Below, piece by piece: positions 20,913 to 62,518 of a DNA stretch of 64,000 nucleotides (positions are counted from its first letter, which is position 1; every line of letters starts with the position of its first letter). This stretch comes from Chrysoperla carnea (lineage: Eukaryota; Arthropoda; Insecta; Neuroptera; Chrysopidae): NCBI RefSeq assembly GCF_905475395.1, contig NC_058338.1, positions 95,651,435-95,715,434 of the forward strand. Reading direction: 5' to 3'. The translations under genes and the position numbers were made by a program. Under the pieces are notes generated by a model. The model did not search any database. It had not been told where the DNA came from and saw only the letters and a program-made list of their open reading frames with translations.

Positions 20913-23900
20913 ATGGCCTTTACTTCATACTGTCGATTATGTGCGAAATTTATACCAGAAATTGATTTAATTGATATACTTGGTAATCGAAACGGCTTAG
21001 AAACAAAAATTAAACAATGTTTTCAATTAGAACTCAATAACAATGATAATGTTTCACCGAAACAAGCATGTATATTATGTGCGTCGAAAGTGCATTCATT
21101 TCATGATTTTCTAATACAAGTACAAAAATCTCAATTAGTATTTAAAACAAATTTTGTTGAAACAAAAGTGGAAGTTAATGACGATTTGGATGATTTTAAA
21201 TTTGATTTACATAATACAAACTCATCGGATAAATTTTCAGGTAAGAAAAAGTTATTTTCTGTGTAATTATTATAATTATTTTTAATTAGAAAATGATGAT
21301 TTCATAGATTATGATGATAATGATGGAGGAAATGAATCTGATGAGGATTATGAACCGGAGGACGATGTTAAAATTGAAATTAGACAATCTAGAAAGGTAT
21401 ATATTGGAATTTTTTATTTTTCATACGTTAAGCGCTCTTAAAATTAAAATTAAAATTTCTATTTTATAGGCTGGTCCAAAATTTAAAAAGGAAAAAGACG
21501 ATTTTACAAATCAAATAGAAACAGAAGAAGGTAAGTTTGATTCCACAGTCCAATTATAGGCCTGCGACGCACTCCCGATTTCACTCCTGAACCTTCAAAA
21601 TTTTGGTAATCGCACTAATTTTGGGATGTTTTTCCTATTTTCCGGGCGGTTGTGATGTTGGCAATGAAATTTTGCTATTACTAAATATTTTCTTAATTTT
21701 ACTTTATTTTGGGTGAAAATCCCATCCTTCTAGCATTCGATTGGTGAATAATGATCTGAATAATAGCGATCTGAATAGTGAAATTTTTCAAACTGTTCTG
21801 TTAATTTGATTATATTTCGAGTCGAAGGGTGAAAATCCCATCGTTCTAGAATGACTAGAACTAAAATCGTAGTTTTGGGGCGTTTTTTCGATTTTCCGAG
21901 AGATTGCAATGTGGCTATTTAAATTTTTCAAACTACTCTGTTAATTTGACTTTAGTTCTGGTCGATTGGTCAAAATCCCATCTTTCTAGCATGTACATGG
22001 AACTGAAAAATGTAATATTGGAAGGTTTTTTCGATTTTTGTAAAGTTAATTTTATAAGAAGGTACCTTACAATATATATTATTAATATTGGAATTAGTTT
22101 TGTGTGGTTGAAAGGTTACTCATTTTCTAAAGCTCTTTCTGGGGGTGAGCCACAGGCCTTACACAAAAGTCTAATAGTCTAATTACCAACAATCAATGAT
22201 CCGTTGATTGGCTTCTGGCACCGAAAAAGTAGGATTTCTCAATTGAAAATCTAAAAGGGAGCCTAAAAATATCCTTGAAGGTTATCCTCAATTCCTTTTT
22301 TGAAAATTACTTGATACCGAAGTATTATAGATAAGAGGTCCCTCAGGGTCTCTTAAATTTTTTCTCTACCGATAAAGTACTGATGTTAACAAAATTATTA
22401 CATGGAATAATCATTACCGAAGAAATCAGTTTTTATAACTAAACGGACCTGTTCAGTTTCACTTTTGTTTCGGGCAGTTATTTATCAGAAAAACTATTAA
22501 AATTTAAATGCAGGGTGTTCTAGGAGTAACCTCATGCCCTTGTTGCATTAGATAGAAAATAAAATTCTAAGACGAAAAGTCGTTTTCCATTTTTTTGATC
22601 CAATGCTCGGATAATTCGCTATTAAATAAAATAGGCAGCCAATCAGGAGCGAACTATAACGGCAAGGCAATGGAAGGGGGGGGGGGTAAATAGTAAGAAA
22701 CTGCGAGAGGTTCAAAGCGTGACGTGTACGTATACATACGCGTGCAAGAGTGTGAATGTGAAAAGTGCGAGTATAAGTGCATCGGATAAAAAAATGAAAG
22801 AGGAATTTTCGCCTGAGAATTTTATTTTCTACCTGCAACAAGATGCGTCTGTTACTCCTGAGACACCCTCTGTACTGAATCGCAAAAATAGTAGCACTCT
22901 CAAAAAAATTTTGTATGTTCTCGAAATTTCAAACAGGTATATCTCGGCGAAAAATGATTGGATTTGAATGAAATATATTTGATCTGATGGCTTGTACTTT
23001 CTAGTTTTTATCTCTGAGAAAATTTATTAATTAATTTGATATGAATTTTAAAAGTTTGCACGGGGTGCTTAAATATTTATACAAGAAATTGAAGATCTGC
23101 AAACAAAAGATTGTTTATTTCTCTTTAAATTAATTTTATATTAATCTTTATACGAACATTAAAAGCGGAGTTATTCGCTGGCCAAGCAAAAAAGACACTT
23201 TTCACATGCAGGATCTACTCAAATAATGACCTTGTATATGTATAAAATTGTTTGATTATTTATTTTCTAGATATTGAAGAAATGAAAAGTGCATTTTATC
23301 AAAAAGTGAGTGAAATCGCTGTAAAAAGTTTCAATCATTTAATATCGGATGAAATGTACGCACGTTTAATACGTGAAGTTGAAGAGAGCGAAGCGAAACC
23401 AACAAAAATGCCCGGTGATTTACGTCGATTAAATCGTTTTGAAGTATTAATTACCGATGATAATCGTAAAAAATTAATTGTACGCCGTGAAAATTCAACG
23501 GATCAAGTTAAATATTTTGTACCAAAAACAGAAATGTTTGATTTAATACGTGACGCACATTTACAATTAAATCATGGTGGTCGTTGTCGTATCGAGAGTT
23601 TATTACGTTCCAAATATAAAAATTTATCACGTGACTTGATTATGTTATATTTGAATTTGTGTACAGTGTGTAAATATCGGAAAAAATCAATCAGCGAACG
23701 TGTTCAATTCAAAGAAGAGAAACCAGTTGGTAAGTTTTTCATTTTCAATTATTGAAAATTGTTAAAATTAAAATGTTCGGATCATCTAGTACCTTTGCCT
23801 CTGTCCGTTTAGCAACCGACCCATGATCTGCGTATACTTGAGTATCAGTCCCGAGCGAACTAACGACAAATGCATCCAATGAGACATTCTGTAGCCTTTC

Positions 23901-26900
23901 GTGGTTAACTCAACAGCAAGTTGGTTATATTTTTCGAGCTTTTGAATGCCGAACAACTTATAGAACATTCGAAGTATCCTCAAATGGAATGATAATTTCG
24001 ATGATCTTTAGTCCCATACTAAATTCATCCAGGACTTCAGGTCAGGACGAGGAGTACTTCGTACCCCGGGTACTTGTCTATTAATGTTCAAGGCAGTACC
24101 CAGGGGTAGACATTATCCGCGAGAAAGGCGGTCTTGATTGGATGATTCAGCACGTGTGGTAATGCCTTATTGACATAACTACAACATCGACACCGTTTAT
24201 TCCCGTTTCCGCTTTTGCTGCCGAGCAACCTATAGAGCATCCAGAATCACCATATCAGGACGAGGAGCATTCCATACACCGGGTACTTGTCTATTGATGA
24301 TCAAGACAGCCCCCAAGAGTAGACTCAATCCGCGAAGTAGACGGTCTTAAATGAACAGTAAAATGATTCAGCATGTGCGGTAATGTCTCATTGACATAAC
24401 CACAACGTCGACTCCGTTTATCTCCGTTCCCGAATCGCCATGTTTCATTTAATGGAACGACACCGAATCGAGCTCAGTGGGGTAAAGCGATAGTTGCGGA
24501 ACCGAGTGTACCTACCATTCAGCAAAAAGTGCATGCTCGCTTCCTTTAGGTTTGTACAGGAGCACGCTTTTCCTTGATCTGGTATTCCTGGTAATCTAGC
24601 AAGATAGTATGCCCGAAGTGCTGAGCATAGATGAGCATCCTCCACCGAGTAAAAATGAAGAATATCAAAGGGTTTCAAACCGAATGAGTTTTTTTCGATT
24701 TTTTATAGCTTTGTGCGTCTCTGCAATGTTCCCAAGAAGTCAAAGAAGTGAGTTTTGGAGGTGTCAAAATCCCCCATTCCCGTCTTTTTTTTGTAGATAT
24801 TTCATGTGTTCAATAATCCATTGGCGAAGGAACTCGGTTATTCACGTGTTTTTATTTTTTTATTTTTTTTTTTGCAGTGTCTAAGCCACCTGTACCGAAA
24901 TTAAAATGTCATGAATGTAATCAAATGTTTTATACATCAAACGAAATTACGGATCATTTTGAAAGTGTTCATCAGAAACCAGTGGAATTCATTTGTTTGG
25001 AATGTTCGAAAATTTATAACAATTATATAACATATCGTAATCATCTATTGAGTCACAAAAATAGATTTCGATTTAGGTAATATATACTTTATTTTGTAGT
25101 CCCTCTCAGTCTATGAAAAAAAAAGTATTTCTCCAAATTTTTAAAATAATGGATTCTGATAGTTCTTGATCAGATTCGATGTTTTAGTAGAGTGTCTCCA
25201 TAACTAAACGCGATAGAAAAAGTTGGATAATATTTCTTGATCTCTTTTCAAGAGACAAGTTCATTGGCATCAACAAAAACTGGCTCGCATTTTTTGTTTT
25301 TAATTTATAAGCAAAAATACGACTCTTAAACTTATGTGAATAACGTCGTGAATGTGAATAATATAATTTTCACATCCTAAGGGCATTTTTTTCTGTAAAA
25401 TTCGGTGGCATCATTAAAATTTAAATAAAACGTTCGGTTTTCGAGTTTTGACCTAAAGTTGTGTTTTTTAAATAGGAAGCATAGTTGACTATGGCTTAGT
25501 TAAAAAATATGTATTACTTGCTGGGTCACTTTGGGCCCATATGTTCGAAATACCGAAAAATGAAATATAATAATTTGCTCGATTACTTTTGGGTTTTTTA
25601 ATATCTGTTTCTAGGAGGCTATGAATAAAATTCCAAGAAATATATTCGTTGTGTGCGTAGTCATGGTAGGGACAATAAAATCGATGCCAGCGCTTTAAGT
25701 GAAAAATTTTGGAGTTAAAGGGGGCTGTTATGACTAATTTGCAATTCTTTACATGTTAATGTAATAGAAATGTCAAATTAAAATTATTGAAAAACACGAA
25801 TTAATTAAACTTAATGCATTAAAAATTGTGAAAATAAGAAATTAAATTGAACAAATATTATTTTTCAAATGTAAATTATCATAATTATTTATTTAAATTT
25901 GTGAGACAAGAATATTAAATTTTAAATGTAAGTCTTAAATGCAATCCATACAATTATATATGCATCCATACAATTCTATAATTAAAGTAGTGTATCGTTA
26001 CCATGGAAACGAAACTCACGCACGGAGCGAATATGTTAAGTTTTATTTAATATATTAAAAATTATTGTGCATTGTATCGGAAATATATTTCAATCGCTAT
26101 CCAGAAATATATTTCTATTACTGGAATGACGATTTCAAACCTCTCAATTTTAAATTGTGCGCTGGAACCAGGTCCCTGATAAAAAACAAATTAATTTAAA
26201 TATTCAAATTGATGTTCCTGTTTATTGATTCTTTTCGATTTTTTGCTATTTCGGGCTTATGGGGCAAAAGCGCCCCAGCAAATAATGCATAGTTAAAGAG
26301 GAAACAAAATCTGTTTTAACTAAGCCATAGCCAACTATGCTTTCTATTTAAAAAAAACACAACTTTGAGTCATAACTCGAAAACCGACCATTTTATTTAA
26401 ATTTTTTAAATTTTAACGAAGCCACTAGATTCTACGGAAAAGAGTGCCTTTAGGACGTCAAAGTTATATTCTCTTAACTTTCAAACAACGGCGTTATTCA
26501 CAAAATCGAACTTTTGCTTATAACTCGAAAACAAAAGAAGCGAGCTACATTTTGTTGACGCCAATGAACTTGCCTCAAAAAAAGGGATCAAAATATTTTT
26601 TCGATCTACTATAGTTATGGAGATACCCTATTAAAACATTTTCCCACTCTGTACAGAGATCTAAGAGCACTTTTAAAAAACAGACGCTCCAGTTTGAAAC
26701 AAGTAGAATCATCAGAGATCCTCATGTTATGAAGGTGGTAGTTCAATCGACAGTGTTCTGTCAAAAGTCCTACCACCCTTCTCAACGGTGCTCTATTGAA
26801 TTTCAGGCAAGCACAGTCGTTTGGCGTAGCTGTGGTTATACACAGTTTGACCTATCGCATGCCCTTCGAAAAGTCCCAGTAATCAAGATGAGCTTGCATA

Positions 26901-29478
26901 GCCATTCCTTGATTCCAGTTTGGCTTTGTTTTTTTCCATTTTTACTTTCACATATTCCCTCAAAATTATTTCCCACTAATCAGTCTTTTTTTTAAACAGA
27001 TGTGAAGAATGCGATAAATTCTTTTCATCAAATCGAAAATTACAAGATCATAAACAACGTCACACCCAAGATCGTAAAAAGTTTTTTTGTAGTGTTTGTG
27101 GGAAAGGATTTTTAGATAAAAATTATCTAACAAAACATGAGAAACGAATTCATTTAGTTGGAGATATTACACCGGATACATTAAAATCACACGAATGTGA
27201 TGTGTGCCATAAATCATTTACTTCCGTTTCTAATTTAAACACACATAAAAAAGTTCACACAGGTAAGAACTCAATTTTCTATATTGTGATCGAATCAACA
27301 AAGAAATATTAATAAAGATGATATGCTTTAATTCTAGGTATTCGAGATCATACATGTGAACATTGTGGCAAAAGTTTCTTCTATAAAAAATGTTTGGATC
27401 ATCATATTACATCACATAGTGAAGAGAGACCTTTTACATGTGACTTATGTCCTGCACGGTAAAAATCTTATATATTATTACTCTAACAAGTTTTTTTCTG
27501 TTCTTATTTTTCTTATTCCTTTATCAAATTCCATGATTCACTCCCCATTTTTAAGCTTATTATGGTTAAGTTTTGACGAAAAATATACTCACGGTCTAAA
27601 AATGTACCGCTTGGGAAAAAACACGCTAGATAAGTAATTTGAACGAAAAAATATCATAAATTTAAATAATAAGTTTACTAAGCAAACATGTTTTTACAGA
27701 TTCTCTCCTAATACTCTAGAAATATAATTACTATTTTTAATACATGTTCTCCTAATAGTAATTTAGGAATTTTTGATTTTTTTTACCATTTTTCTATGAA
27801 ATTTGTTATTGTTGTTTTCAGCCAAGGGTTACGGTAACTACGGGAGTGGAATTCCGCACGGGTCGAGCTAGTTATTTATAATAATATCGGGTTAATAATA
27901 ATCATAATAATAATTATAATACGTAAGAGGGGTACCGCAAATGGGTCCCTAGCACCTAGATCAAGAGGTCCTGCCATCTGAGGGTGAAATGTCTCCGGGT
28001 AAGAGATGCTATTTTAAGCAGACCCAAACATTATAGACATGACGCCCTGCAGGTTCTTGCAGGTGCAAATAACATGTATGGAGGTATCATCGTCCTCCAT
28101 GCAGGCCTTGCAAATGGGATCATCAGAGATTCCAATGTTATGAAGGTGGTAGCTCAATTGACAGTGTCCTGTTAAGATTTCCACTGCCCTTCTCAACTGT
28201 GTTCTTGTGAGGCAAGCACAGTCGAATGGTCTAGCTGTGGTTATACAGTATTCAATAGGAACTTCTCGTAGTTATTCCTTGATCCTATAAATTACGGAGC
28301 ATCTTGCTTTGAGAATGACAGGTTCAGATGAAAGAGGCGTTTGGGATTATCTCTATTGTGTCGACGAGTCTGCTGCTTCCCTGGTGGATAAAATATAAGT
28401 GTTAATAGGTCTTAGAACCTCTGAAAAATTCTTAGGAATTCTGAAAAAAAAAATTTGGAACTCTGAATAATTCTAAATTTTTCAACGTTTTTGGACTGTC
28501 TAATTCAGACTTAATAAGTCTGGATAACTCTGAATTAGACAGTCCAAAAACGTTAAGAAAATCAGAGTTATTCAGAGTTCCTAAGACTTTTTCACAGTTC
28601 TTAAGACTTTTATAGAGTTTCAAAGTTTTATAAGACTTATTCTTTCTTCAAATATTTTTTCCACCAGGGTTCATTCTCTTTAATGCTAGAGTGACCCGGT
28701 ATCCAGATCAGTCTGACTATGTTATTCAGTGCCAGGCGATTCAGTCTTCGAAGCAAACATAGACTATCCTCGATTGGAATCTTGACGCCTAAAGGGCCTG
28801 AAATGTGCCCTGGCATCACTGTATTCTTTTATATTACAAATCTGAGCACCTCTCAGCATGGCGAAGATATTCCTTTATTCTAGGTCCATAAACTCAAGAG
28901 CCAGGTAGATCTCCGGCCCTTGACCGTAAGGTGATTCTAAAATTAAAAGAATAATTTTTATTTACAGTTTCAAGACGAAAATGTTATTACGTCAACATAC
29001 ATTTGTACATACAGGAATTAAACCATTCCAGTGTCACGTATGCGGAAAGAAATTTCGACGAAAACCAGCCTTACTTGAACATTCGATAACGCACACAAAT
29101 TTGTATCCATTTAAATGTGAAATTTGTGAAAAACGTTTTCGTTCAAAGAAAAATTGTGTTGTAAGTATATAAATTTTCTCTTAATAACAATGAGTTTAAT
29201 TTTTCAAAGATCCTGTAAATCAAGGTTAAATTCAGGATAAGATATTCCATACTTCTACTCGAATCCTTGTTTTCATAATCGCTTTGTTAAAGAAATATTT
29301 CGCTGGAAAGAATAAAAAGTGTTTTTTTTTTCAGTGGCATCAACGTTTACACACAGGAGAGAAACCGTACTCTTGTGAGATGTGCAATCGACATTTTACA
29401 TGCTCATCGTACTACGATAAACATATGAAACGTAATCATGGCGTTATCAAAGTAAAAAAAGAATTTGGTAATTGTTAA
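20913..29478 (+). CDS. ZAD / H2C2 integrase-type zinc-binding / C2H2 fusion protein, copy 1, 9 exons, 624 aa
   Basis: Exons 20913-21240, 21290-21396, 21470-21530, 23271-23729, 24878-25076, 27000-27262, 27338-27458, 28968-29160, 29335-29478; every junction is GT-AG and keeps frame. Start: ATG at 20913, matching both paralogues. ZAD cysteines C7/C10 and C53/C56. Exons 2-3 form an acidic linker (DEDYEPEDD). Exon 4 (residues 166-318) is a KRBA2/Ginger-like domain: a helical MKxxFYxKVxE region, then a [17 protein letters not shown] segment and an H2C2 zinc site (H262, H267, C296, C299). No integrase catalytic core follows. Exons 5-9 encode ten C2H2 fingers (about 328-617), some split by introns. 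Predicted nuclear DNA-binding regulator; the H2C2 part may bind DNA or protein (inference). Two paralogues lie downstream. Confidence 0.87.
21600..22010. repeat. Degenerate tandem repeat in intron 3 of ZAD-H2C2 copy 1
   Basis: AAAATCCCATCxTTCTAGxA recurs three times (near 21715, 21835, 21970) with similar flanks (CTGTTAATTTGA, CGATTTTCCG-like parts). Confidence 0.5.
22512..22874. mobile_element. TIR element (MITE) of ~363 bp in intron 3 of copy 1
   Basis: Left end CAGGGTGTTCTAGGAGTAAC and right end GTTACTCCTGAGACACCCTC pair; inner AGAAAATAAAATTCT arms also pair. Contains a G-run and no recognised protein. Confidence 0.6.
24038..24430. repeat. ~215-bp tandem duplication in intron 4 of copy 1
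   Basis: CAGGACGAGGAG, CCGGGTACTTGTCTATT, ATGATTCAGCA and TCATTGACATAACCACAAC recur in two consecutive units. The minus strand at 24445-24640 has a short frame that may be a LINE tail, not identified. Confidence 0.6.
25183..26640. mobile_element. 1.46-kb foldback element in intron 5 of copy 1
   Basis: Arms of ~325 bp (25183-25510 and 26310-26640) are complementary: AGCATAGTTGACTATGGCTT left, AAGCCATAGCCAACTATGCT right; TTCATTGGC left, GCCAATGAA right. About 800 bp of unique sequence lies between; no gene seen. Confidence 0.7.
26650..26900 (-). mobile_element. LINE 3' fragment, minus strand, intron 5 of copy 1
   Basis: Matches in reverse the LINE remnants at 50.5 and 54.2 kb (TTGAGAAGGGTGGTAGGACT on minus). 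Heavily degenerate. Confidence 0.5.
27490..27880. repeat. ~380-bp dispersed repeat ending CACGGGTCGAGCTAGTTA
   Basis: Shares CTTATTCCTTTATCAAATT, AATAATAAGTTTA and ACTACGGGAGTGGAATTCC with 41880-42215 and, in part, 59465-59580. Intron 7 of copy 1. Confidence 0.65.
27950..28350 (-). mobile_element. LINE fragment with C-terminal zinc-knuckle-like part, minus strand
   Basis: The minus strand encodes [20 protein letters not shown] followed by [15 protein letters not shown] and SIHVICTC, typical of the region after RNase H in I/R1/Loa-type LINEs. Broken; intron 7 of copy 1. Confidence 0.65.
28379..28669. mobile_element. Palindromic MITE splitting the LINE remnant
   Basis: AACGTTTTTGGACTGTCTAA and its complement flank a short centre; outer ends are CTGGTGGATAAAAT and TTTTTTCCACCAG. 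A relative lies at 63783-64000. Confidence 0.6.
28670..28930 (-). mobile_element. LINE fragment with RNase H motif, minus strand
   Basis: The minus strand encodes [20 protein letters not shown] with SIKENE after it, the RNase H signature (W-[IV]-PGHS/G-x-x-x-NE). Same LINE as 27950-28350, separated by the MITE. Intron 7 of copy 1. Confidence 0.65.
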
Positions 29479-34867: not shown

Positions 34868-35052
34868 TTCGGTATAATTAATTAACAAAACCTATTTTCA
34901 CCATGAACATAAATATTGTAAATATAATATGATAACATTTTAAATATAATATAAAAAATAAAATAATAAAAATTTCTTACCATTCATAAATCACCAAAAA
35001 GGTTATACATACATATACAGGAAGCACGTGCAAACCATAGGTCGAGCTAAGT

Positions 35053-45131: not shown

Positions 45132-48100
45132 ATGACTTTCACATCGTACTGTCGATTATGTGCAAAATGTATAGCAGAAGTTGATTTAATTGATATACAT
45201 GGCAATCGAAACGGCTTAGAAATGAAAATTAAACAATGTTTTCAATTCGAATTGGATAATGATAATGTTTCACCGAAACAAGCTTGTATATTATGTGTAT
45301 CTAAAGTGCAATTGTTCCATGATTTCGTGATACAAGTACAAAAAGCTCAACTAGTATTCAAATCAAATACTAATTTTGTTGAGACAAAAGTTGAAGTGAA
45401 CAATGCTGACTTGGATGATTTTAAATATGATTTAAATAATACAAATTCGGACAAGTTTTCAGGTAATGCTTTAAATAAATAAAAAAGTTAATAGTTTAAA
45501 CTCCCAGTTGGCTAGAGATTCAATCCTTTTACGACCCTTTTATGTAGATATTTTATGTATTTAAAATTATTAAAAAAAATTAAAAACCCAACTGAGTTAA
45601 ATAGAAACAAAAGAAAAAAAGTCCAGTAGTTTACATAGCGACTTTAACAGTCGGGACCCATTGTTGGGAAGATACGAGCCAGTGTAGATTTTAGTGGGTC
45701 TCGACTGTTAATGTAAACTGCTGGACTTGTTTTCTTTCCAGTTTATATTTAACCTAGTCGGATTTTTTGATTTGTAAATAATTTTTTTATTTTATCTTTT
45801 TAGTTATATATCCCACTTACCATAGTTTGTCGACTTTAATTTTCAGCTTATGTATGTATGTTTGGTCCTTTTGAGGCGCTCTAGAAACCAAACGATCTAG
45901 AACTAAACAGAATTGTTTATGTGTCTAGAAACTTAAGACATAGCTTCGACAAGAGAATTATGAGCAACCTTTACTTTGCTTACGTTTATAGCAGGCTTAA
46001 ATACGGAGTTCTTCTTTGGGGAAACTCCACACATGCAGCTCAGTTTTTTATTCTACAAAAACGCATAGTCAGAGTTTTAGCAAACATTGATCAGCCGACA
46101 TCATGCAGAGAATTTTTAAAGAGTTCGGGTTTTTGACCTTGACAGGAATTTACATTTACGAATGTCTTATCTATACAAAACAAAATTTAAACACAATGTA
46201 TAACTATAATCATGACTATGACACGAGACATGCATCCCAATTTAGAACTCCTAAGCATAATTTAACCTTGTTTGAATGTGACCCAATACACAATGCGTCT
46301 AAGCTGTACAACAATTTGTCGGAAAGCATAAAAAGTATTTCAAGTTAATAAATTTAAAATAGCGTCTAGAAGGTTGATACTTGAAAAATCCCCATATACA
46401 CTGAATGAATTTTTTAATTAACTTTTTAATTGTGACCAGCCTATATGTATTTACACATCTTTTCGGCAATAAAATTTATTATTATTATTAACGCGTGAAC
46501 CGATTTTAATGATTATTACTTTAATCGATTTGTCTATTTAATAGCTATTCAATAATACCCCACTTGACATAGTTCGCCGACTTTCATTTTTTTTCTTTTT
46601 CACAATATGGCGCCTGGTGGTCGCCATATTGACTTTTCATTATTGCCTCGCACTCGCAAGGCCATCAAAATCGGTCAACGCGTTTGGTCTCTAGTGTGCC
46701 ACATAGGAATACACATTTTTAGTCGAGAACTTCTCTTAAATTGGGCGAGAAAAAATTGAAAATGATATTCATAGAAAAAAATGTAACAAGTGAAATTTAC
46801 AAAATTTAAAAAAATCCTGACAAATTTTTCGGGAACGGAACCCTAAACTCGCACTTGAAATATGGTGTCTGGTGATCGACATATTGAATTTTCATTACTG
46901 CCATATCTTTAGTAGCACTTGCAATGTTAAAGCAAATCAATTGACGTAAGAATCATCAAAATCGACCGACGCAATTGGCCTCTATTGTACCACATAAGAA
47001 CAGACATAGACTGATAAACACATTACGACCTTTGCGTTGCTCAGTCGGGTAAAAACATGAAAAGACAAAATTCTTGGGGAGAAAATATGAATTTAGTGAT
47101 GAAGCGCTGCTCCTTTTTTTACTGTAATGGGAATTTAAACTTATTAATTATTTATTAGTTTTTAGTAGGTTTTGTTTTAAAATAAATTGTGTTTATTTGA
47201 AAGATTACGACGACAATTATGGAGAAAGTGGGTCTGATGACGATTATGAACCTGAACCTGAACCGACTGAAATTAAAAGTAAATCCAAACAATCGAAAAA
47301 GGTGTGTATGCAATTATTATAGTTTTTATTTTAAATTAATTACAATTTTTGTTTTCATAGAATGGATTGCAATTTAAAAAAGAAGATGAAACGGAAACAG
47401 AAGAAGGTGAGTTGATGGAATTATAAGTTTTGCTCTTTAATGTGAAACTCTGATAATTTAGGTCAAGAACCAATCGAAGTATTTGACAGTAATTTCAGAA
47501 AAGTTTGAAATTGGAGAGGCTGTTTAACAAGTTCATGTCTAACAAATTTTTCGTCCACAATAATTTTTATAGTCGAGAACTTCTCTTAAATTGGGCGAGA
47601 AAAAATTGAAAATGATATTCATAGAAAAAAATGTAACAAGTGAAATTTACAAAATTTAAAAAAATCCTGACAAATTTTTCGGGAACGGAACCCTAAACTC
47701 GCACTTGAAATATATCTAAGAATACTCTCCATTAAATTACCTTTTTCCTAAAAGCGTTCTCCAAATTGAACCGATTTTGAAGATCATCATTTAATTTTGT
47801 ATTGTTTCGGATACGTAACCCTAAACTCATGTAAAACATAGCTAAGAACACTCCCCATTAAATTACCTTTCGAACAAAACAAAAAAATTAAAATCAGTTC
47901 ATCCGTTTAGGTGCTACGATGTCACAGACGGGCAGCGGTCAATTTGACCAAAAATTTGAAAAGTATGACCTAAATTTAGTAGGATTACATACTTGGTTTA
48001 CCAAAATTGGATATAATTTGGATATGATAGAGCAAATTTAATTTTATTATTTTGATGACGTCATTAAGTTTAAAAAATCGATTTTTTTTATAACATAGCC

Positions 48101-51100
48101 AAATTTTATCCGATCTGAATGGAGTTTTTTTAAACCCATTAATTTTGGGTCAAACTTTTCATCTTTGATAATAGTTTTTCGCTAAAATTTACCTTTATGT
48201 TTAATATCGGGACTTTGCGGTGAATATTGATACTCAACACGAGAGATATAAGCTTACTAAAATTTCCTCCGTAACATAAAAAAAAATTATTTAAACTCAA
48301 AACTGAAAACTACTATCAATAAAATATTATCGCTACGAAACATTGTTTTAGTAAATAATATAATAATACTTATTATTTTCGTTATTATTATTAACTCGAA
48401 ATTTCGAACTCCTTAACAAGCTCTGGTCATCAGCTAGGACAGGTTCTTCATTTTCTAAGCTTGCCCTGGTGTACCCCTAGCTACGGGCCTGACCCTACAT
48501 AATTAACGAGCTCAAAATAAACCCTCGCTGATGCAAAGTGCGATGATTTTTGATAGTTTCATACACTAATATATTTCTTTTTCCAGATATTGAAGCGATG
48601 AAAACAGCATTTTATAAAAAAGTGAATGAAATGTCTGCAAAAAAATTCAGTCATTTAATAACCGACGAAATGTACGGCCGTTTAATACGTGAAGTTGAAG
48701 AGAGCGAAGCAAAAACAAAAAAAATCACTGACGATTATAAAAGATTAAATCGTTTTGAAGTATTAATTACCGATGATAATTGTAAAAAATTAATTGTACG
48801 TCGAAATAAACCAACGGATCCAATCAAATATTTTGTACCAAAAAGTGAAATGTTTACGTTATTACGTGAAGCACATTTACAATTAAATCATGGGGGTCGG
48901 TGTCGTGTAGAAGCTTTGCTACGTTCAAAATATAAAAATTTATCGACCGATTTAACAATGATGTATCTAAATTTGTGTAAAGTGTGTAAGAATCGTAAAA
49001 AACCACCATACGAACGTGATCAAGCAAAATCGAAAGAAGTTAAACAGCCTGGTAAATTTTTATACAGGGTGCGCCAATTTTTATATCGATAAACATTGAA
49101 TAACTTTGACATTTGTCAATCGATTGAATTTAGTACTTTAACCATGAATCGAAACAACCTGCCGAAATAGTGACGCTGTACATTGAAACTAGTCGTTCAG
49201 CTTTGTTAAATCAACGTGCATATCGTAGAAAATACCGTGGCCAACAGGCACCATCTGAACCAAGGCTTTCGAATTAACTACTTGAAGCGGTTAGAGAGAG
49301 CGTTGCCAAAAACCCAAAAGGGTCGTATCGTCATCACTGCCGCTCGAATGGTTGACACTGAATCTGATTTTTGGAAGCAAATTTTGATAACCGATGAGGC
49401 CCATTTCACACTTCCTGGCGACATTAATAAGCAAAATTCCCGCATTTAGGGAACAGAAAATCCACACGAGATTTATGAAACGCCATTGCATGCCCAACAA
49501 GACGGTGCGTCATGCCACACTGCAAATAACACAATTTAGTTTCTGCAACGAAAATTCCCTGGATGATGTCAGTAAGAGGCGACATTAACTAGCCATCCAG
49601 ATCTCCAGATTTGATCCTTCCGGGCATCTTTTTGTGGTATTAAGGTAGCGAGCCTCAGGTCAATGACGAGCTCAAGGCAAACATTCGTACCTAAATTGAA
49701 TAAAAATATTCTATGTTTACATACCGACGGCGCACTCTATACAAAATCTCAAATCTACAGCTGTTGTGAACTTGTATTTTCTTATCACGGTTCCATTTTT
49801 TTGCAGCATCCACTCCAGCAAGATTAAAATGTAACGTATGTAATAAAATGTTTCATACATCAAACGAAATTACCGATCATTTTGAAAGTGTTCATAAACA
49901 ACCAGTTGAATTCATTTGTTTGGAATGTTCGAAAATCTTTTACAATTATATTAAATATCGTAATCATCTTTTAAGTCATAAAAATAAATATCGATATAGG
50001 TAAGGCATTTTGCAAATTTAGGATAATCGTGAGGAATTCTCGTGAGGAATGAGATCGAGATATACTTAACTTTTCACCCTCTCCCGAGTTATATCTTTAT
50101 ACGGATTTTCAAGGGTCCGAAGATCTATCTAATGCGGGAGTTTATGGACCTAAAATAAAGGTATCGATTCCTCTTGGTCAATATGCGACGGTTTTTCAAT
50201 CAGAAATCTTCACGATGCTGAGAGGTGTTTAGATTTGTAATACGAAAGGTTAAAGTGAGGCTCATATAAATATCTTCTCAGATAGTACTTCAGGTCTATC
50301 TTCCGGTCCTGTAAGCATCAAGATGCCAATCGAGGATAGTCAAAAATACTTCGAAGTCTGAATAGCCTGGCACTGAATATCACAGTAAGTCTCGTTCACC
50401 TGAGGCTGTTCTTCCCATAGCAAGATGATTTATAATTTAATGAATCAAGGAATGGTTACGACAAGCCCATCTTGATTGCCGGGACTTTGCCCAGGCCATG
50501 CGATACGTCAAACTGTGTATAACCACAGCTAGGCACATCGACTGTGCTCACCAGAAACTCACTAGATCGCGGCTGAGAAGAGTGGTGGAACTCTTGACAG
50601 GACATTCGATTGAATTATCTCTAATGATTCCACTTGTAGGTCCTGTATGGGGGACGATGAAACCTCCTTACGTGTTATTTGTCCTTGTAGAAATCTGCAG
50701 GTGTCAGTTTTAGAAAGTATGAGATTCATCACGTGGGCTTTCTGCGTGGCGTCTGGTTTCGACAGAATCCTATAGCTTCATCTGCTTAAAATAGTACCTG
50801 TTATCTAAAGATGTTTCGCCCAAGGAGAGCAAAGGATTATTTCTATTAGGACGCATATATTTTTTGGAAATATAATCATTTCAAATTATGTTCCTTCAAA
50901 AACAATCAGGAAATTTTAGGAAAAGTCAGGTAATTTCATAAAAACAGTTCAATCGTTACTCTGACTAAGTTACTTTTGATTATGGAGGCGTTGATAAATG
51001 GTAACTTACCTGGTGATTTAAATTGGAACTACTGAAAAAGCGGACCACTTCCTGTTTTAATTAATACGAATTATTATCGCCAGTTGGCGGGATTTATCTA

Positions 51101-54100
51101 ATTTGAATTTGAAATGATAAATGATAAGTACAAGTATTACCATCTGATAATATAAATTGGAGCTAGTTGGCGGATTTGCAACTCCCAGTTACCAATATAG
51201 ACCTTACAGAAATCTCGGTATCTTATACTGACCAACCGAACCATTTCAATCTATCTAGGGAAAGATTACTTAGGTTTTCTCTTTCCTTTCCGATATTGTT
51301 AATATGTTTTATTTTTTCCTTTTGCACAGATGCGAACAATGCGATAAATGTTTTTCATCAAATCGAAAATTACAAGATCATAAACAACGACATTTAAAAG
51401 TACGCAAAAAGAAACATTTTTGTAGTGTTTGTGGCAAAGGATTTTTAGAACGAAGTTATCTAACAAAACATGAGAAACGGATTCATTTAATTGGTGATAT
51501 TTCACCGGAACAATTGATTAAACATGAATGTGATATTTGTCACAAGTCATTTTCATCCATGTCCAATATGAATAACCACAGGAAAATTCATTCTGGTAAG
51601 AATTCGGAATTTTAGAAATCCAGATTTTTTTATAAATTATCAGACCTCCTTCTCCCCTCATTTACGAAACTAAAATAGGGGCAAAATTAACACTTTTATT
51701 GGAAATACTTTTTCCAAAATCGATGAAAGGACCCTAAACGAATAGATAGAAAAATAGATTCGTGTGAAAATTTTTCAAATCGCCCCCAAAATGTTTTTCG
51801 GGTAGTTTTCGAGCTACGCGCAATCAAAGCTACACATATATTACGATTATTAGTACAGTTAATAAGCTGGGATGCGCATAGGAAAAATTGGAAAACAGCA
51901 CCGATTTTAATGAAGCTTTTCTAACGTTTTTATAGGACCTCAATGAACATTCAGCCAACTTAACCTAGCCATAGGGGGAGAGGAGAAATAGAGTCCCAGC
52001 GGGGTTCATAGAGTCCAAAAACAACCCCAAGGCAGGAGATGACAAAAAAATTATTTGAAATTCTTATTTTGGTTTAAAACTTGCCGTGTTTTTACACAAA
52101 GACACGGCAAACTAAATATTTATCGTTCAAACTGTGCTCTAAGGGGTATAATTTTCGGAATACGTGGCAAATTCCGGGTAGTCTGACAACGAACAATTTT
52201 TTAGTCATCTCCTGGGTTGGGCCAAATTTTGGAATACATATGTCCCCACTAGGGATCTATCCCAATCTATGACTAGTTTTAGTTGTCTGAATATTTTTTG
52301 TGGTACTATAAACACATTACAAAAGGTTTCATTTGAATCGGTGCTGTTTTCCAACTTTTACATACATCCCTTATTAGCCCGTGCTAATAGCTATAATATA
52401 TGTATAGCTTTAATTGCCCGTAGCTCGAAAACTACTCGTTAAAAAATTTTATAGCCGTGAGAGCTTTTGATCAGACCGATCCGAAGAACATTTTGGGGGC
52501 GCTTTGAACAAGTTTCACAGAAAGCCTTTTTCCTATCTAATCGTGTTGGATCTTTCCACAAAAATCTAATGATTAGGCAAGCGTTAATTTTTTTTTGAAT
52601 TAATTCGAATTTTAAAAAAATTTTTTTTTTTTTAAATTATAAACAATATTCTAAATTAATTTTTAACTTATTTTGAAATTTAAACTCAAACTTAAAACTA
52701 GAATCATTTTCCCTTCGAGTCACATAACTTTAGATTTCGTTATTTTTCTCTTAATTTTGGTTTTATATTATATAGTTTGAGGAACCTTCAGAATTGAAAT
52801 GATCTCAAATTGATTGTTATTAATTTCATGTGGTTTCTAGGTATTCGAGAACATACTTGTGAGCATTGTGGTAAAAGTTTCTTCTATAAAAAATGTTTGG
52901 AACATCATATAACAACGCATAGCGACGAACGGCCTTTTACATGCGAACAATGTCCCGCACGGTAAAAATTGATTAATTCGCTCAGCCGAGTTTCAATAGG
53001 ATCTCCTAGTGCTTAAAATTAAATAAATATAAAACGAAATTTAAAAAAAAATTTTAATAGTGTATCAATAATTCAAAATGTTTATGATTCGCTTATAAGC
53101 ATTCGAAAGGTTATGTGATAAGAAATATTGTTCTATTTTTTATTCTGGTCGCCATATATGTTATCTGTGAGACAGACACTAGCGACTCTATTGAAGCTGG
53201 GCAATGCGAATAACTACAGAAGATGGTATACGGATGACTTACATCCATCTGATAACCAGATGAGTTATATTTTTTTATAAAATTTTATGGATTGATAAAG
53301 ACACCTATGATAGTTTGTCTATCGAAAAGTGTTCATGGCTATTTTTAATTAAATTGAGATTTTGAATTAAATTTTTTTTAACGAAAATGGAAAGATCATA
53401 AATAAGTTTTACAAAATATGTCTCATCTGCCTTTTTTACTTATCTAAATTATAAGAAATAAACAATATTAATTTACAGTTTCAAAACAAAAATGCTTCTA
53501 AGACAACATGTACTCGTGCACACAGGAGCTACACCGTTCCAATGTTATATATGCGGAAAGAAATTCAAACGAAAGCCAGCATTAATTAGCCATTCTATAA
53601 CTCACACAAATTTGTATCCATTTAAATGTGAAATATGCGATAAACGTTTTCGTTCAAAGAAAAATTGTCTTGTATGTATAAAATTATACAAAATACTTTG
53701 CTCTGCACAAACCTTATGTTTAATTTAATGTAATCATTCCTTCTCGTCGAGAATGGGAATGAGATATACATAACTTTTCACCCCCTCCTGGACAATATCT
53801 TCATACCGATGGGTCAAATGTCGAAGATCTATGTAGTGCGGAGGTTTATGGATCTAGAATAAAGAAATCGATTCCTCTTAGTAAATATGCGACAGTTTTG
53901 TAATTAGAAATCGCCAGAAAGGCTACAGTGGGGCACATATCAGTATGTTCTCAGATAGTCATCATAGAGGATAGTTTATGATGAATTGAATCGCTTGGCA
54001 TTGAATAATACAGTCAGGCTGATCTGGGTACCAAGCCACTCTGTCGTTATTACACATGAGCCTGTCATTCCCATAGCAAGATGCTCCGTAGTTTACCCAA

Positions 54101-54856
54101 CCAAAGAATGGCTACGACAAGCCCATATCGATATTAAAGGACTTTGCGCAGCGTATGTGACAGGCCAAACTGTGTTTGACCACAGTTGAGAAGGGTGGTG
54201 GGATTCTTGACAGGATGCTATCGATTGAATCTTCATAACACTTTGTTCTTTGTGAAATGATCTTACTTGTAGGGCCTGTATGGAGGACAATGAAATCTCC
54301 AAACATATTATTTGCACCTGCAGGGCGTCAAGTTTAAAATTTTGGGCCCGATACCTTGGGTCCATCAATCCTGGGAAATCCCGTCGAAGAAGCTGTAGAC
54401 TTTCGGCGTGGCGTCTTGTCTCGACAGAATCTTATAGCTTCATGTGCTTAAAATAGAATCCCTTACTCGGAGACATCTTGCCTTAGGCTGACAGGTTGTT
54501 CTCAAGGAGGGTATAGAGGACCGTTTAGTTTTGGTGCTAGGGACCCATTTGCCGTACTCTCCTAATGTATTATTGTTATTATTCACGCCACAGGAAGCGT
54601 CATAATTTATCCGATTATGAGTTCCTTGTCACCACGTAGGCTGTATAATGTTTGTGCAGGGTTAATTTTTCCATATTTTATTTGTAATCAAGTTTTTTAT
54701 TTTTTGTTTCAGTTTCATCAACGTTTACACACGGGCGAAAAACCGTACTCTTGTGAGATGTGCAATCGACATTTTGCATGCTCATCGTACTACGATAAAC
54801 ATATGAAACGTAATCATGGCGTTGTCAAAGTCAAAAAAGAGTTTTCTAGTTGCTAA
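45132..54856 (+). CDS. ZAD / H2C2 integrase-type zinc-binding / C2H2 fusion protein, copy 2, 9 exons, 618 aa
   Basis: Exons 45132-45462, 47204-47301, 47361-47406, 48587-49051, 49807-49999, 51330-51595, 52841-52961, 53479-53671, 54713-54856, with the same intron phases as copy 1 throughout; exons 7, 8 and 9 have identical lengths (121, 193, 144). ZAD cysteines C7/C10 and C52/C55; acidic linker ([12 protein letters not shown]); H2C2 domain about residues 159-313 with H255, H260, C289, C292 intact; ten C2H2 fingers to the C-terminus. The last exon is nearly identical to copy 1 even at silent sites. Introns hold a LINE fragment, a mariner remnant just after the exon 4 donor, a foldback element and a second LINE fragment. 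No break in the coding sequence was seen, so it is probably functional. Same predicted role as copy 1. Confidence 0.87.
45893..46490 (+). mobile_element. LINE 3' fragment (end of reverse transcriptase region)
   Basis: Two overlapping frames encode a LINE C-terminal region ([46 protein letters not shown]); a frameshift separates them near 46120. Ends AATAAAATTTATTATTATTA. A 5'-truncated, broken non-LTR retrotransposon. Confidence 0.75.
46721..46862. repeat. 142-bp segment, first of two identical copies
   Basis: From AGTCGAGAACTTCTCTTAAA to CTCGCACTTGAAATAT; base-for-base the same as 47570-47711 by eye. Confidence 0.85.
47570..47711. repeat. 142-bp segment, second identical copy
   Basis: Identical to 46721-46862. 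Downstream (to ~47900) a diverged tandem continues with ACCCTAAACTC and CCATTAAATTACCTTT. Confidence 0.85.
49065..49738 (+). mobile_element. Deleted mariner-type (Tc1/mariner) transposon
   Basis: TIR ends CAGGGTGCGCC and GGCGCACTCT with flanking TA. Degenerate transposase pieces: [13 protein letters not shown]-like (HTH part), then [20 protein letters not shown] (the SDEAHF catalytic region of mariners) and a frame-shifted ENPHEIYE part. About half normal length with several breaks. Sits 13 bp after the exon 4 donor of ZAD-H2C2 copy 2. Confidence 0.78.
50090..50830 (+). mobile_element. LINE 3' fragment in intron 5 of copy 2
   Basis: Collinear with 53755-54545 (TTTATGGACCTAAAATAAAG, GAAGAGTGGTGGAACTCTTG, CACAGCTAGG). 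Encodes scraps such as [17 protein letters not shown]. Same family as the minus-strand pieces in copy 1. Confidence 0.6.
51685..52590. mobile_element. ~900-bp foldback element in intron 6 of copy 2
   Basis: Arms pair over long stretches: CGCCCCCAAAATGTTTTTCG and CATTTTGGGGGCG; GGAAAACAGCACCGATT and AATCGGTGCTGTTTTCC. Related to the sequence at 150-1085. Confidence 0.7.
53755..54545 (+). mobile_element. LINE 3' fragment in intron 8 of copy 2
   Basis: Same LINE tail as 50090-50830; encodes [19 protein letters not shown], the RNase H signature. Broken. Confidence 0.62.
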
Positions 54857-57030: not shown

Positions 57031-57032
57031 GT

Positions 57033-57107: not shown

Positions 57108-57202
57108 CAAAATATTTTTATAAGAAACAAACAATTGTTTTAAAATAAAAACAAATAATTTAAACTAAACAATTGAATATAACAAATAAAAATTAATGTA
57201 AA

Positions 57203-60200
57203 ATGGCATATGATTCTTTTTGTCGTTTATGTGCAACAGATACACCACCAATTGATTTAATCGATATAGAAGAAAATCCAAACGGTTTACAAATGAAAAT
57301 TGAACAATGTTTTCAAATAAAATTCGATGATAATGATAATATTGCACCAAAACAAGCATGTATATTGTGTGCATCAAGAGTTCATTCATTTTATGCATTC
57401 TCAATACAAGTACAAAAAGCACAGCTTGTATTTAAATCAAATCCAAATTTTGTTGAAGCGAAACTTGAAGATATCAATAATGATTTTGATGATTTTAAAT
57501 TTGATTTACATAATACAAATTCATCTGATAAATTTTCCGGTAAGCTAAAATTTGTGAGACTTTTTTTAAATGAAATTTTTAATAAATTTTTGATTTTCTT
57601 TTTTTTTTTTTTTGAAGATTGGGATGATAATGACGGAGATAATGGTTCAGGTGATGATTACGAACCGGAGCCTAAAGTTAAAAGGGAATCGAAACAGTTT
57701 AAAAAGGTGTGTATGATTGAAAAAGATTGGCTTTTTTTTTCGTTACCGGAACTTTTATCCTTTGTATAGTTAAATCGATGACATTTTGAGTGATTACTTA
57801 TTCAATTTTTAGCTTGATTAAAATATAAATTTTATTCAAAAAGCGTAATTTATTGTTTTTAGAATGGACTTCGTCAGAAAACAGGAAATAAAAATAATTT
57901 TAATCTAAAAGAATCAGAGGAAGGTAAGTTTCAAAACACTTCGACTTTAAAGATTACGATATTTCACAACATTAAACAATCGATTCAACTACAATCGATT
58001 GATTATAAAACATCCATTAAATAAATCAAAATCACTTATATTTCAAAATATTAATCACAGATCTGGTAATTATAGCAGGGATGTAGTATAAAGTCCTACT
58101 TTAGACAAGGGGGGTGTATCACTCAGGTGGGAAGTAATGTGCCTACTTTTGATTGGTTGCAGCTCTCATTTGCAGGAAATTCAAATAAAACGATAATATT
58201 TCGTGTGTTTAAGATTTTAATTTTCTATATCCATGGTTTTAGATTGCCTCAAGCAATATGCCTGCTTTTGATTGGCAGCGGCTGTTCGTACTCTAAATTG
58301 CGGGAAAATTTAAATGGGTAGCGAATTCTGCGTGTTGTAGATTGGTCCGAGCAAAAAATCTTTCTATTTAAAGTTAAATCTTTTACCCAAAGGAAAAATA
58401 TGTATTTTTAAAAAAATACAATTTAGAAATTAATTACAAATATAATATTTTTAACTAATTACCCTTGGATGAAGGAATGTACCTTTAATATTCCTTTGAC
58501 CGACTAATTACCTAAAGAATATTCCATGCTTACAAACGAATCAAAAACACTTAAAGAACGCTTTGAGCATACTTTCAGCATGCGCCTAGTTAACAACCAA
58601 TAGAAAGTAGGCACAATGATACCCTGCCTCTTTCCCCTGAGTGAGACTCATCCCACTCGATTATACTCCATCCCTTTTAAAATATTCCTATATCCATGAT
58701 ATTAATTTATTTATACAATACACATTACATAAGTGTATGATATTTTTAAAGAAAATTAGAAGTATTTCGTAAATTACAAGTTGAAAGTAGAATAACTCTT
58801 ATTTAAAATCGCAGAGATTATAGTACATCCGGCAGACAGTTTCAGATAGAAAAAAGTTCGACATTAATGAAACTTTGGATGTTGTTCAGGTATGGGTGGT
58901 TAATTAATAGATAGAGTAGATAGTTCAAAGTCAGTGATTGTAATTAGGAATCATAATCACAACAACATTTCATCATAATTCGGAAGAAATAAGGAATTCT
59001 GTATTTATTTTAGTATCTTTAGCGAATTTAGAATCAAAGGGCCATATCTCGGTAACGAATTGACATACAAATCTGATTGAATAATCAAAATTGTTGGAAA
59101 TTTAGTATTTTTAGCGAATTTTGAATCAAAGAGCCATATATCTTGGTAACGAATTGACATACAAATCTTATTGAATTTTCAAAATTGTTGGAAATTTAAC
59201 GTTCTACAAAAAAGTATAGGAATGCTTTCGCCGTAGGACGTAAGGGAAAAATGTTATTGATGAAAACCGGAGGAAGGTCGAAAATTTCTTTCCCCTTCCC
59301 TTTTCTCATAAGTTTCTCGAGGTCCAAAACTTGAGAAAATATTAATTAACCATCTCTGAACAACATCCCTAAGTTTCATTAACTTCCAACCTTTTTCCAG
59401 CTTATCGTCTAGCCTATATTATTTCTCTAGCCTGTTTTTTTTGTCACTTCGCGAAATCTTCCTTATTCCTTTATTAAAGCTTATCGTTTTGGCTAATGAC
59501 GAAAGATAGACTCATGATCTAAAAATGTACCATGCCGTGGAATACCGTACTGTGGAATTCCACACGGGTCGAGCTAGTTATCTCAAAGATTTTTCAAACA
59601 AATTGACCATTTTTTTATGCACAAAACTTATATATATCCAGTAAACAAGGGAGAAAAAAAAGACGAAATATCTAAATTTTGACCGATTTTGAAGTTTGGG
59701 ATCAAACAAAGTTCATCCTCTAGATCAAAAGTTATATGGGGTCGGGTAGTACTTTTGTCCAGGAGTGTAGTAACTTCCACTTCTAAGAGAAGGTAAAATA
59801 TATGTTGAAAATATCAATGGGAATCGAAAGAGGGATAAATTCTAAGCAAAAAGTGTCAATACTTTCTATATATACTTTTCGAAATACTAGCATATTTCGA
59901 AAAGTCAATACTTTCCGAGCTATTGGCGATTAAAATTCGAAGTATTTACCGTCAAATAAATTAAATATTTGACGGTTTTTAATTTTAAATACTATTTAAA
60001 GTATGATATACTTTTTTTCAAAAAGGGTCAAATTTTCAGTTATTTAACGTTAAATACTCCGAATTTCAATCGCCAATAATTCGGAAATTATTGACTTTTC
60101 GAAATATGCTTAAATGACACTTTTTGCTTAGAATTCGTCCCTCTTCCAATTCCCGTTAAAATCTTAAATTTGACATCATAAAACTTTTGGTTCTTGGGGT

Positions 60201-62518
60201 CTTATCTACTTATTACCAAATTTTCAGGACAATCGGAGTTATAGGAAAGAATTTGGAGTTTTATTCCTCGTTTACTGGAGTATAATGTGTATTTTTCGTT
60301 TTATAACAATTAAAAATTATTGTTTGTTTCCCAATTTTTCTAGATATTGAAGAAATGAGAACCGCATTTAATCAAAAAGTACATGAAATGTCCGTTAAAG
60401 TTTCCAATCATTTATTATCGGATGAAATGTACGCACGTTTAATACGTGAAGTTGAAGAGAGCGAAGCAAAAGAAAAAAAATTATTGGGTGATCAACGACG
60501 TTTGGCACGCTATGAAATCATCGTACACGATAATAATCGTAAACGATTAGCTATTCGTCGCGAACAACCATCGGATCCAATCAAATATTATGTACCAAAA
60601 AGTGAACTATTCGATTTGATACGTAACGCACATGTACAAAATAATCATGGCGGTCGATGTCGCATTGAAAGTGTTTTACGCTCCAAATATAAAGATATAT
60701 CACGTGATCTGATTGTATATTACTTAAAGTTATGTACAGTGTGTAGGAATCGTAAAAATACGGTTAGTGAACGACAACAAATCAAAAGGGAAGAAGAAAA
60801 AGAGAAACCGAAAGGTAAGTTACACGCGTATTCACTCTAAAACAGAAGGTGGAGGGGGGGGCGAAACTCACATGGATAGTGGGCCTCTTAAATACCAGCG
60901 TCTAAATTCAAAATGAATGAAATGTAGTGGCTGCTACAGCAGACGCTCTCTAATGGTGTAAATGTTGTTTGAAATGTCATTTAAATAATAAATTATATTA
61001 TTTAAAATTATTTTATTTTTGGTTTCATTTTACGAGTACCTCGAAAATTCAACTCATTTTCGTAAATAAAGTAGAGAAAATGTTTAAATTAAAAGTTATT
61101 CTTTATAAAACAGGGAACAACTTTTATTCTAGTCGCCTATTTTTATACTCTGTATATATGTAATATATATCAAGGTACCCTGTATATATGTAATATATAT
61201 CAAGGTATATTAAGTTTAGTCCCAAGTTTGTAACGTTAAAAAATATTAATGCTACGAACAAAAGTTTGGTATAAGTGTTCATAAATTCACCTAATTAGTC
61301 CATTTACGATTGTCTGTTCGTCTGTGTCAACACGATAACTCAAAAATGAAAAAAGATATCAAGCTGAATTTTTATAGTGTGCTCAGGACATAAAAAGCGA
61401 GGTCGAGTTCGTAAATGAGCAAGTAAGTCAATTGGGTCTTGGTTTCGTAGGACCCATCTTGTAAACCGTTATAGATGCAAAAGTTTAAATGTAAAAAATG
61501 TTTCTTATAAAAAAATAAACAACTTTCGTTTGAAACATTTTTTCCTAAACATCTCTGTTTATCCGTGAGAGCGCAAATTATATAGTATGTATTATATGAG
61601 AATATCGGTAATGTGTCTGTGGCTATCTAAGAGTGGCTATCTTTCTTTACTTATGACGTAAGCAAATAAACGAATGCGTAATCAACACTGTCTGTACATG
61701 ATATTTCAATAATTAATTCAGTCAATTTTTTGTTTTTTTAAACCAGTCAACAATTAGAAAAAACTTTTTGAATTATAGTTAAAGTTTTTTTTTGATGGCG
61801 GCCTGACAAACCCCCTCTCCACTCACATTGCTTAATTCTTCATGTGAGTAGATTGACAATCATTCTAAAATCAGGTTCCTGATGATACTGGACGATATCA
61901 CACCGTCTGTATTTCTTTGGAATATCTGTCCATTAATTCTGAAATCAGTTCAAACTTGAGAAAACGGTACATCTTTGGCAGTCTATTGGTACAAAAAAAA
62001 ACCAGCTTTTAGCACGCGTGATAAGGTTACGGTTGAGAACGAGGTGCTGGATAACACCTATGAAAATATTCCTAAAATAACTCACTAAAATTAGGCTAAA
62101 ACTAAGAAAAAATTTAATAATGATTTTTTGTTAACTTCGAGTTGCGACATAGTTATTGAAATAAATACCACGATACTCGAAATAAAATTGTATATTAAGA
62201 AATTCTATTTAAAAATATAAAAAAACATACAACAGCAAACATCGTCAGTAGCTAAATTTATTCATATAACACATTACAAGCATTTCAATAACTTCGAAAA
62301 TATTTATTTAATTTTTCAGTAATTACACCACCTCAACGAAAATTAAAATGTCACGAATGTAACGAAATGTTTTATACATCAAATGAGTATACGGATCATT
62401 TTGAAAGTGTTCATCAGAAATCCGTCGAATTTATGTGCTACGAGTGTAATAGAATTTATAATAATCATATTTCATATTTGAATCATCTTAATAGTCATAA
62501 AAATAAATTTCGATTTAG
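57203..62518 (+). CDS. ZAD / H2C2 integrase-type zinc-binding / C2H2 fusion protein, copy 3, exons 1-5 (3' part outside window)
   Basis: Exons 57203-57539, 57618-57706, 57863-57923, 60344-60814 and 62320-62518 follow the exon plan and phases of the two upstream copies. ZAD cysteines C7/C10 and C53/C56; acidic linker (GDDYEPEPKVKRE); H2C2 domain about residues 163-319 with H259, H264, C293, C296; then the first two C2H2 fingers. The remaining fingers (exons 6-9 in the paralogues) are not found by 64000 and are presumed to lie to the right: intron 5 is 1.3-1.9 kb in the other copies and 1.48 kb of it is seen here. This is the most divergent of the three (for example AHVQNNHGG against AHLQLNHGG). 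The gene is cut by the window edge; nothing suggests it is broken. Confidence 0.85.
58078..58674. mobile_element. ~600-bp TIR element in intron 3 of copy 3
   Basis: GGGATGTAGTATAA left and TTATACTCCATCCC right; inner TGTGCCTACTTTTGATTGGT and ACCAATAGAAAGTAGGCACA also pair. Confidence 0.7.
59465..59580. repeat. Fragment of the CACGGGTCGAGCTAGTTA repeat
   Basis: Third, shorter copy of the family at 27490-27880 and 41880-42215. Confidence 0.55.
59622..60292. mobile_element. ~670-bp foldback element in intron 3 of copy 3
   Basis: Almost completely palindromic around 59963: ATCCAGTAAACAAGG left and CCTCGTTTACTGGAG right; CTAAGCAAAAAGTGTCA and TGACACTTTTTGCTTAG inside. Confidence 0.75.
61141..61737 (+). 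repeat. 550-bp dispersed repeat, copy 10
   Basis: Plus-oriented diverged copy in intron 4 of ZAD-H2C2 copy 3; its first ~37 bp are duplicated in tandem (CTGTATATATGTAATATATA twice). Confidence 0.75.

Follow-up and report, generated by a model that had tools for sequence, protein, structure and literature searches.

An integrase-type zinc-binding exon probably captured by a ZAD zinc-finger gene family of Chrysoperla carnea

How does a zinc-finger transcription factor come to carry what looks like a piece of a transposon-type integrase in the middle of its reading frame? The question is raised by a 64,000-nucleotide stretch of the 559-Mb genome of the lacewing Chrysoperla carnea (G000:C2:95651435-95715434; hereafter the window, meaning the whole stretch that was analysed). 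Here, genes of the ZAD zinc-finger (ZAD-ZNF) type hold, between an N-terminal ZAD and a C-terminal array of C2H2 fingers, a single exon with the four zinc ligands of an integrase-type H2C2 domain. We suggest that this exon was very likely captured from an integrase-like gene and has since been kept by purifying selection, and, more tentatively, that it may give the protein a second surface for assembly.

Two of these genes, A (20913-29478) and B (45132-54856), are complete in the window, and a third, gene C, is partial, starting at 57203 and ending past the window at C2:95717811. A fourth tandem member, copy D, lies just outside the window (C2:95721195-95728146), and two further copies, E (minus strand, C2:2006516-2002670) and F (plus strand, C2:2116709-2121472), lie on the same chromosome ~93.5 Mb from the tandem cluster. 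An earlier note on this DNA, made from the sequence alone, had described three tandem copies spanning 20913-62518; the tandem arrangement stands, but the number is four in tandem plus two distant, and 62518 is the end of exon 5 of gene C rather than the end of the gene. That note had also proposed that ZAD, H2C2 and up to ten C2H2 fingers are joined in one spliced frame, and this is borne out by the gene models of all six copies: each has one open frame (624, 618, 626, 641, 644 and 637 amino acids in A-F, respectively), GT-AG introns throughout, ten finger motifs by pattern, and the same order of ZAD, acidic linker, integrase-type H2C2 exon and ten C2H2 fingers. The exons that fall in the window are as follows.

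20913..21240, + strand: gene A exon 1, ZAD (C7, C10, C53, C56)
21290..21396, + strand: gene A exon 2, acidic linker
21470..21530, + strand: gene A exon 3, linker, phase 1 at its end
23271..23729, + strand: gene A exon 4, integrase-type H2C2 module, phase 1-1
24878..25076, + strand: gene A exon 5, C2H2 fingers 1-2
27000..27262, + strand: gene A exon 6, C2H2 fingers
27338..27458, + strand: gene A exon 7, C2H2 fingers
28968..29160, + strand: gene A exon 8, C2H2 fingers
29335..29478, + strand: gene A exon 9, last fingers and stop (total 624 amino acids)
45132..45462, + strand: gene B exon 1, ZAD
47204..47301, + strand: gene B exon 2, acidic linker
47361..47406, + strand: gene B exon 3, linker
48587..49051, + strand: gene B exon 4, H2C2 module, phase 1-1
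49807..49999, + strand: gene B exon 5, C2H2 fingers 1-2
51330..51595, + strand: gene B exon 6, C2H2 fingers
52841..52961, + strand: gene B exon 7, C2H2 fingers
53479..53671, + strand: gene B exon 8, C2H2 fingers
54713..54856, + strand: gene B exon 9 and stop (total 618 amino acids)
57203..57539, + strand: gene C exon 1, ZAD
57618..57706, + strand: gene C exon 2, acidic linker
57863..57923, + strand: gene C exon 3, linker
60344..60814, + strand: gene C exon 4, H2C2 module, phase 1-1
62320..62518, + strand: gene C exon 5, C2H2 fingers 1-2 (exons 6-9 past the window)

Do these copies belong together? The intron phases of A-D are 1,0,1,1,2,1,2,0; copy F has an additional phase 2 intron within exon 4, and the same is implied for E by its exon lengths. 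The ZAD (PF07776, Pfam cut-off 28 bits) scores 41.1, 43.5 and 45 bits in A, B and C, and 45.2-45.5 bits at the loci of D, E and F, from a genome-wide search in which 150 of 484 candidates were scored. With an N-terminal ZAD above the cut-off, a C-terminal C2H2 array and shared intron phases, A-F can be assigned together to a single ZAD-ZNF gene family. All ten fingers of both A and B lie in the window; of the ten in gene C, two (exon 5) are in the window and the other eight beyond its end (L009). The contact positions of the fingers are almost alike in A, B and C and different in D, E and F, and because of this difference the residues at these positions suggest that D, E and F may have different DNA targets. 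Besides, E and F are near-identical in their ZAD codons (dN 0, dS 0.02), and exon 4, linker and fingers of the same pair have dS of 0.42-0.57, a hint of gene conversion in exon 1.

The identity of exon 4 is a matter of its ligands and its relatives. The pattern H-x4-H ... C-x2-C is present in all six copies, and the earlier observation that the ligands are intact in the three window copies while their surroundings have diverged holds well (relative to exon 4 of A, identity is 72% in B and 66% in C). In an alignment of ten rows, comprising the six family exons and the relatives L039, L033, L041 and L042 introduced below but omitting L032, which is without C-x2-C, the four zinc ligands are the sole invariant columns, and nine of the ten rows match the Pfam integrase H2C2 profile PF17921 at E-values up to 1. 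Exon 4 of A, B and C scores 20.9, 20.8 and 18.9 bits against this profile (E-values 4e-4 to 2e-3). Because these scores are under the curated cut-off of 25.5 bits, exon 4 is described here as integrase-type and is not filed as a member of PF17921, and the H2C2 call rests on the ligands and on collinearity with integrase-like genes, not on Pfam alone. No DDE catalytic core was found in the six family proteins, as the earlier note had seen for its three copies. Its description of the module as "Ginger-like" could not be upheld, given the missing core and given that the Y/F-P-Y/F-Y/F pattern (YPYY, Ginger1 only) is absent from the module in the six copies and from the pieces of five relatives. 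Sequence and profile searches of solved structures returned nothing relevant, and a scan of viral contigs returned no relative.

The way in which the module entered the gene can be read from the exon borders. Exon 4 is 459, 465, 471 and 471 nucleotides long in A-D and 217+254 nucleotides in E and F, and in all six copies its length is a multiple of three, its outer borders are of phase 1-1 and its flanks are AG/GT. Two ZAD paralogs that are without the module (L064 and L065, the two examined, with splice models built by hand) have the phases 1,0,1,2, which are the family phases minus exon 4, and the intron of L064 at the position of the module measures 74 nucleotides. Because exon 4 is symmetric and the module-free paralogs keep the flanking phases, the module probably entered the third, phase-1 intron as one exon.

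Where might it have come from? A search of the genome with exon 4 of A gave, among the tool's scored candidates, 17 places at E-values up to 1. These include one exon from each tandem copy and four half-exons from E and F; among the other nine, the best are L019/L039 (3.6e-14), L020/L032 (2.5e-11) and L021/L033 (4e-7). In L033, a frame of 525 amino acids has this module and, after it, an integrase-like core, whose D, D and E were judged by eye, and hhalign of exons A-D against L033 gives 96.9% over 112 columns. Two other integrase-like frames, L041 (C6:16.12 Mb) and L042 (C6:26.02 Mb), are 41% and 40% identical to L033, have S in place of the second catalytic D (also judged by eye), and are possibly domesticated. 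The module also occurs in other company. At L039:6887-7483 (C3:37.99 Mb), a 198-amino-acid frame, which may be a separate gene or a single exon, has the module with intact ligands and no core, and scores 29.1 bits against PF17921, above the cut-off. At L032:3751-5931 (minus strand; C4:25.54 Mb), a 726-amino-acid frame joins the module to a hAT transposase (Dimer_Tnp_hAT, E-value 1.7e-15); this is a second, different fusion of an integrase-type module, 57% identical to the module of L039 and with C-x2-C lost. Among the hhalign targets (L033, L050 and L042) gypsy was represented by one frame, L050, which gives 1.3% with exons A-D, yet with the same ligands aligned. The histidines are spaced x4 in A-F, L039 and L033, x5 in L041 and L042, and x6 in four gypsy copies. 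In a 15-row tree of the module, the gypsy rows of which are four copies of one family (4 of 13 gypsy-type loci gave a usable frame), the six family exons form one group (99/99).

Once in place, the module has been kept under selection, as had been proposed before. We estimated the ratio of nonsynonymous to synonymous substitution (dN/dS) by the Nei-Gojobori method with a bootstrap 97.5% bound, for pairs that are not independent and in which dS is partly saturated. In exon 4 the ratio is 0.20-0.48, not near 1, and the bound is below 1 in all 15 pairs. The same is true of the fingers (0.11-0.23; 15 of 15 pairs) and the ZAD (0-0.42; 15 of 15 pairs); in the linker the ratio is 0.13-0.78, with the bound below 1 in 10 of 15 pairs. 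Among the tandem copies A-D, blastn gave 58 matches, 43 of which pair corresponding exons and 15 of which lie outside exons in both copies. Thirteen of these 15 join introns that do not correspond, and the remaining two pair intron 3 of B with intron 3 of D, where the stretch in D is a repeat, since part of it also matches intron 1 of B.

These observations have to be weighed against other explanations. One is that an intron of the ZAD-ZNF gene harbours a transposon-derived gene or remnant of its own, exon 4, which would not be spliced into the message: exon 4 is open by itself, with methionine as codon five in A, B and C. In addition, the gene models rest on genomic sequence, a point that also counts against our own reading. 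However, the 1-1 phase, the splice borders and the frame are conserved in six copies, an intron runs within the module in E and F, the introns of F before, inside and after exon 4 are of only 66, 590 and 338 nucleotides, and a tblastn search of the six gene regions, with three integrase cores as queries, recovered no convincing core remnant (best E-value 0.61, which is chance level). A nested gene is thus highly improbable; together with the dN/dS of the exon, this supports the earlier note's reading of a domesticated transposase piece. It is also conceivable, but unlikely, that the module is spliced in with the frame kept and yet serves as a mere spacer without a specific binding role. The dN/dS of exon 4 exceeds that of the fingers, and the loop beside the second histidine is altered in E and F, as would suit a spacer; on the other hand, the adjoining linker is the more relaxed of the two (10 versus 15 of 15 pairs below 1), and the four zinc ligands are invariant in six of six copies and are the sole invariant columns of the ten-row alignment.

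The direction of transfer might also be the reverse, the module being an old host domain that was taken by integrase-like genes such as L033 and L032. The occurrence of the module alone (L039) and with a hAT transposase (L032) indicates that it moves between contexts, and the tree leaves the root unsettled. Nevertheless, we consider this direction slightly less likely still than a spacer, given that the PF17921 domain generally precedes the core in integrases (150 matches were scored in this genome, most of them in long frames) and that the ligand pattern is common to gypsy copies, with other spacing.

Several results weigh against our preferred reading, namely capture of the module from an integrase-like gene and its retention as a zinc-folded part. 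Some concern the domain itself: PF17921 stays below its curated cut-off in A-D (18.9-21 versus 25.5 bits), a scan of full-length A against Pfam at E-values up to 0.01 does not list H2C2, and the GGR loop behind the second histidine is lost in E and F. The AlphaFold models of the window sequences are poor (pLDDT, the predicted local confidence, 46.2 and 56.2), and Foldseek, run with these low-confidence models against the PDB and against viral models, returned nothing at E-values of 0.001 or below; a foamy-virus intasome, ranked 13th among the PDB hits (E-value 3.9), is not counted as support. Others concern selection, in that the module is constrained, though less so than the fingers, and in that for the 59-codon core the bound is below 1 in 14 of 15 pairs, reaching 1.02 in the pair A-E. 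The remainder concern the source: Pfam at E-values up to 0.01 finds H2C2 in L033 (33.7 bits) but no integrase core, hhalign of exons A-D against L042 gives just 5.5%, and the join of the six exons to L039/L032 in the tree is weak (49/61), with long branches flagged.

With these points taken into account, the borders, phases and frames are as observed, and we regard capture in the proposed direction as very likely. The third (phase-1) intron of an ancestral ZAD zinc-finger gene would have received the zinc-binding module from the N-terminal part of an L033-like integrase gene; as a symmetric phase 1-1 exon this module would have preserved the frame, with the catalytic core left behind. Duplication of the ZAD gene, both locally in tandem and to a remote place, would have followed, with the module held by purifying selection, as the dN/dS shows. 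Origin and selection taken together are an explanation in which we have good confidence.

What the module does is less certain. ZAD domains dimerise and C2H2 arrays bind DNA, and here the ZAD would dimerise the protein and the array would bind DNA. By analogy with the N-terminal domain of integrases, the H2C2 module could form a second zinc-folded assembly surface, leading to higher-order chromatin complexes; we put this forward tentatively, as a role somewhat short of an even chance. The accessible part of one source mentions a model of the ZAD dimer (PMC9810180), and that of another states that the integrase H2C2 domain aids multimerisation (PMC12863088). On balance, we favor the whole explanation, origin plus mode of action, over the others. 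It would be tempting to go further and propose that the captured module lets ZAD proteins co-assemble with L033-like integrases, and so tether, restrain or silence such elements, but this is doubtful.

The surroundings of the fusion genes hold further zinc-finger sequences. Single-frame C2H2 array genes lie beside and between them, at window positions 33143-34891 (minus strand), 39813-41162 (plus strand) and 17348-18733 (plus strand), the first two of which are tandem arrays with a period of 84 bp. A ZAD exon at window 5494-5742 was set aside, being just 27% identical to the ZAD exon of A. Intron 4 of gene B (window 49100-49730) contains a seemingly decayed mariner-like element, judged by eye from a motif that we take to be typical of such elements. 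As to the taxon, the many ZAD matches in the genome suggest an insect. TTAGG has 323 overlapping matches, and those listed are spread through the interior of C1 and so give no clue to the order; of three pieces from chromosome ends, none contained (TTAGG)3, and one has N at both ends.

Precedents for such fusions exist in KRBA2, SCAND3 and the ZAD-THAP gene CG6689, to which this domain combination, by analogy, adds a variant. The names of KRBA2 and SCAND3 (KRAB, SCAN) point to fusion with transcription-factor domains. The comparisons that follow draw on the accessible parts of the four sources cited. The two mammalian genes are listed as integrase-derived, in the rve (integrase core) class (PMC3257199); they resemble the lacewing genes, by description, as host genes with an integrase-derived part, and differ in that the lacewing genes lack the core and combine the module with a ZAD and C2H2 fingers. 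The ZAD-ZNF family, with 91 genes in Drosophila melanogaster, is one of the large insect transcription-factor families, and its members, including the fly Cucoid clade, share with A-F an N-terminal ZAD, a linker, a C2H2 array, tandem clusters and shared intron positions (PMC9810180). The accessible account of Cucoid mentions no integrase module, whereas here one stands between linker and fingers (PMC9810180). Drosophila CG6689 is a ZAD-ZNF gene that gained a transposase-related zinc-binding domain via extra exons; there, however, the domain is a P-element-like THAP, N-terminal and in the first two exons, and here it is an H2C2 module in one internal symmetric exon (PMC9810180). Imagin of malacostracan crustaceans is likewise an arthropod gene, one whose H2C2 finger has stayed under purifying selection even though catalysis was lost, but it keeps a dead integrase core, with the YPYY motif in decapods, and its account, as far as accessible, mentions no ZAD or C2H2 array (PMC12863088). 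Vertebrate GIN1/GIN2 are also integrase-derived with a conserved HHCC zinc finger, but they keep an integrase-like domain and are not fused to a ZAD-ZNF (PMC3424704). A combination of ZAD, integrase-type H2C2 and C2H2 array was not found in searches of open papers; one transcription-factor paper, PMC4351887, does contain the terms ZAD, H2C2 and C2H2, and an annotated case in closed papers or protein databases is possible.

Little is known of how ZAD-ZNF genes acquire new interaction surfaces. In this family the capture can be read from the gene structure, as a symmetric exon in a known intron, with module-free relatives and an integrase-like relative in the same genome, and it thus offers a readable example of a transcription factor gaining a new part from a transposon-type integrase. 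Because the module does not reach the Pfam cut-off and the full-length scan does not list it, similar fusions may escape domain surveys. If the co-assembly with L033-like integrases were true, these genes would be an insect counterpart, independently reached, of the mammalian integrase fusions with KRAB and SCAN factors. More generally, the family allows a test of whether the zinc domain of an integrase can still drive protein assembly once it is separated from its enzyme.

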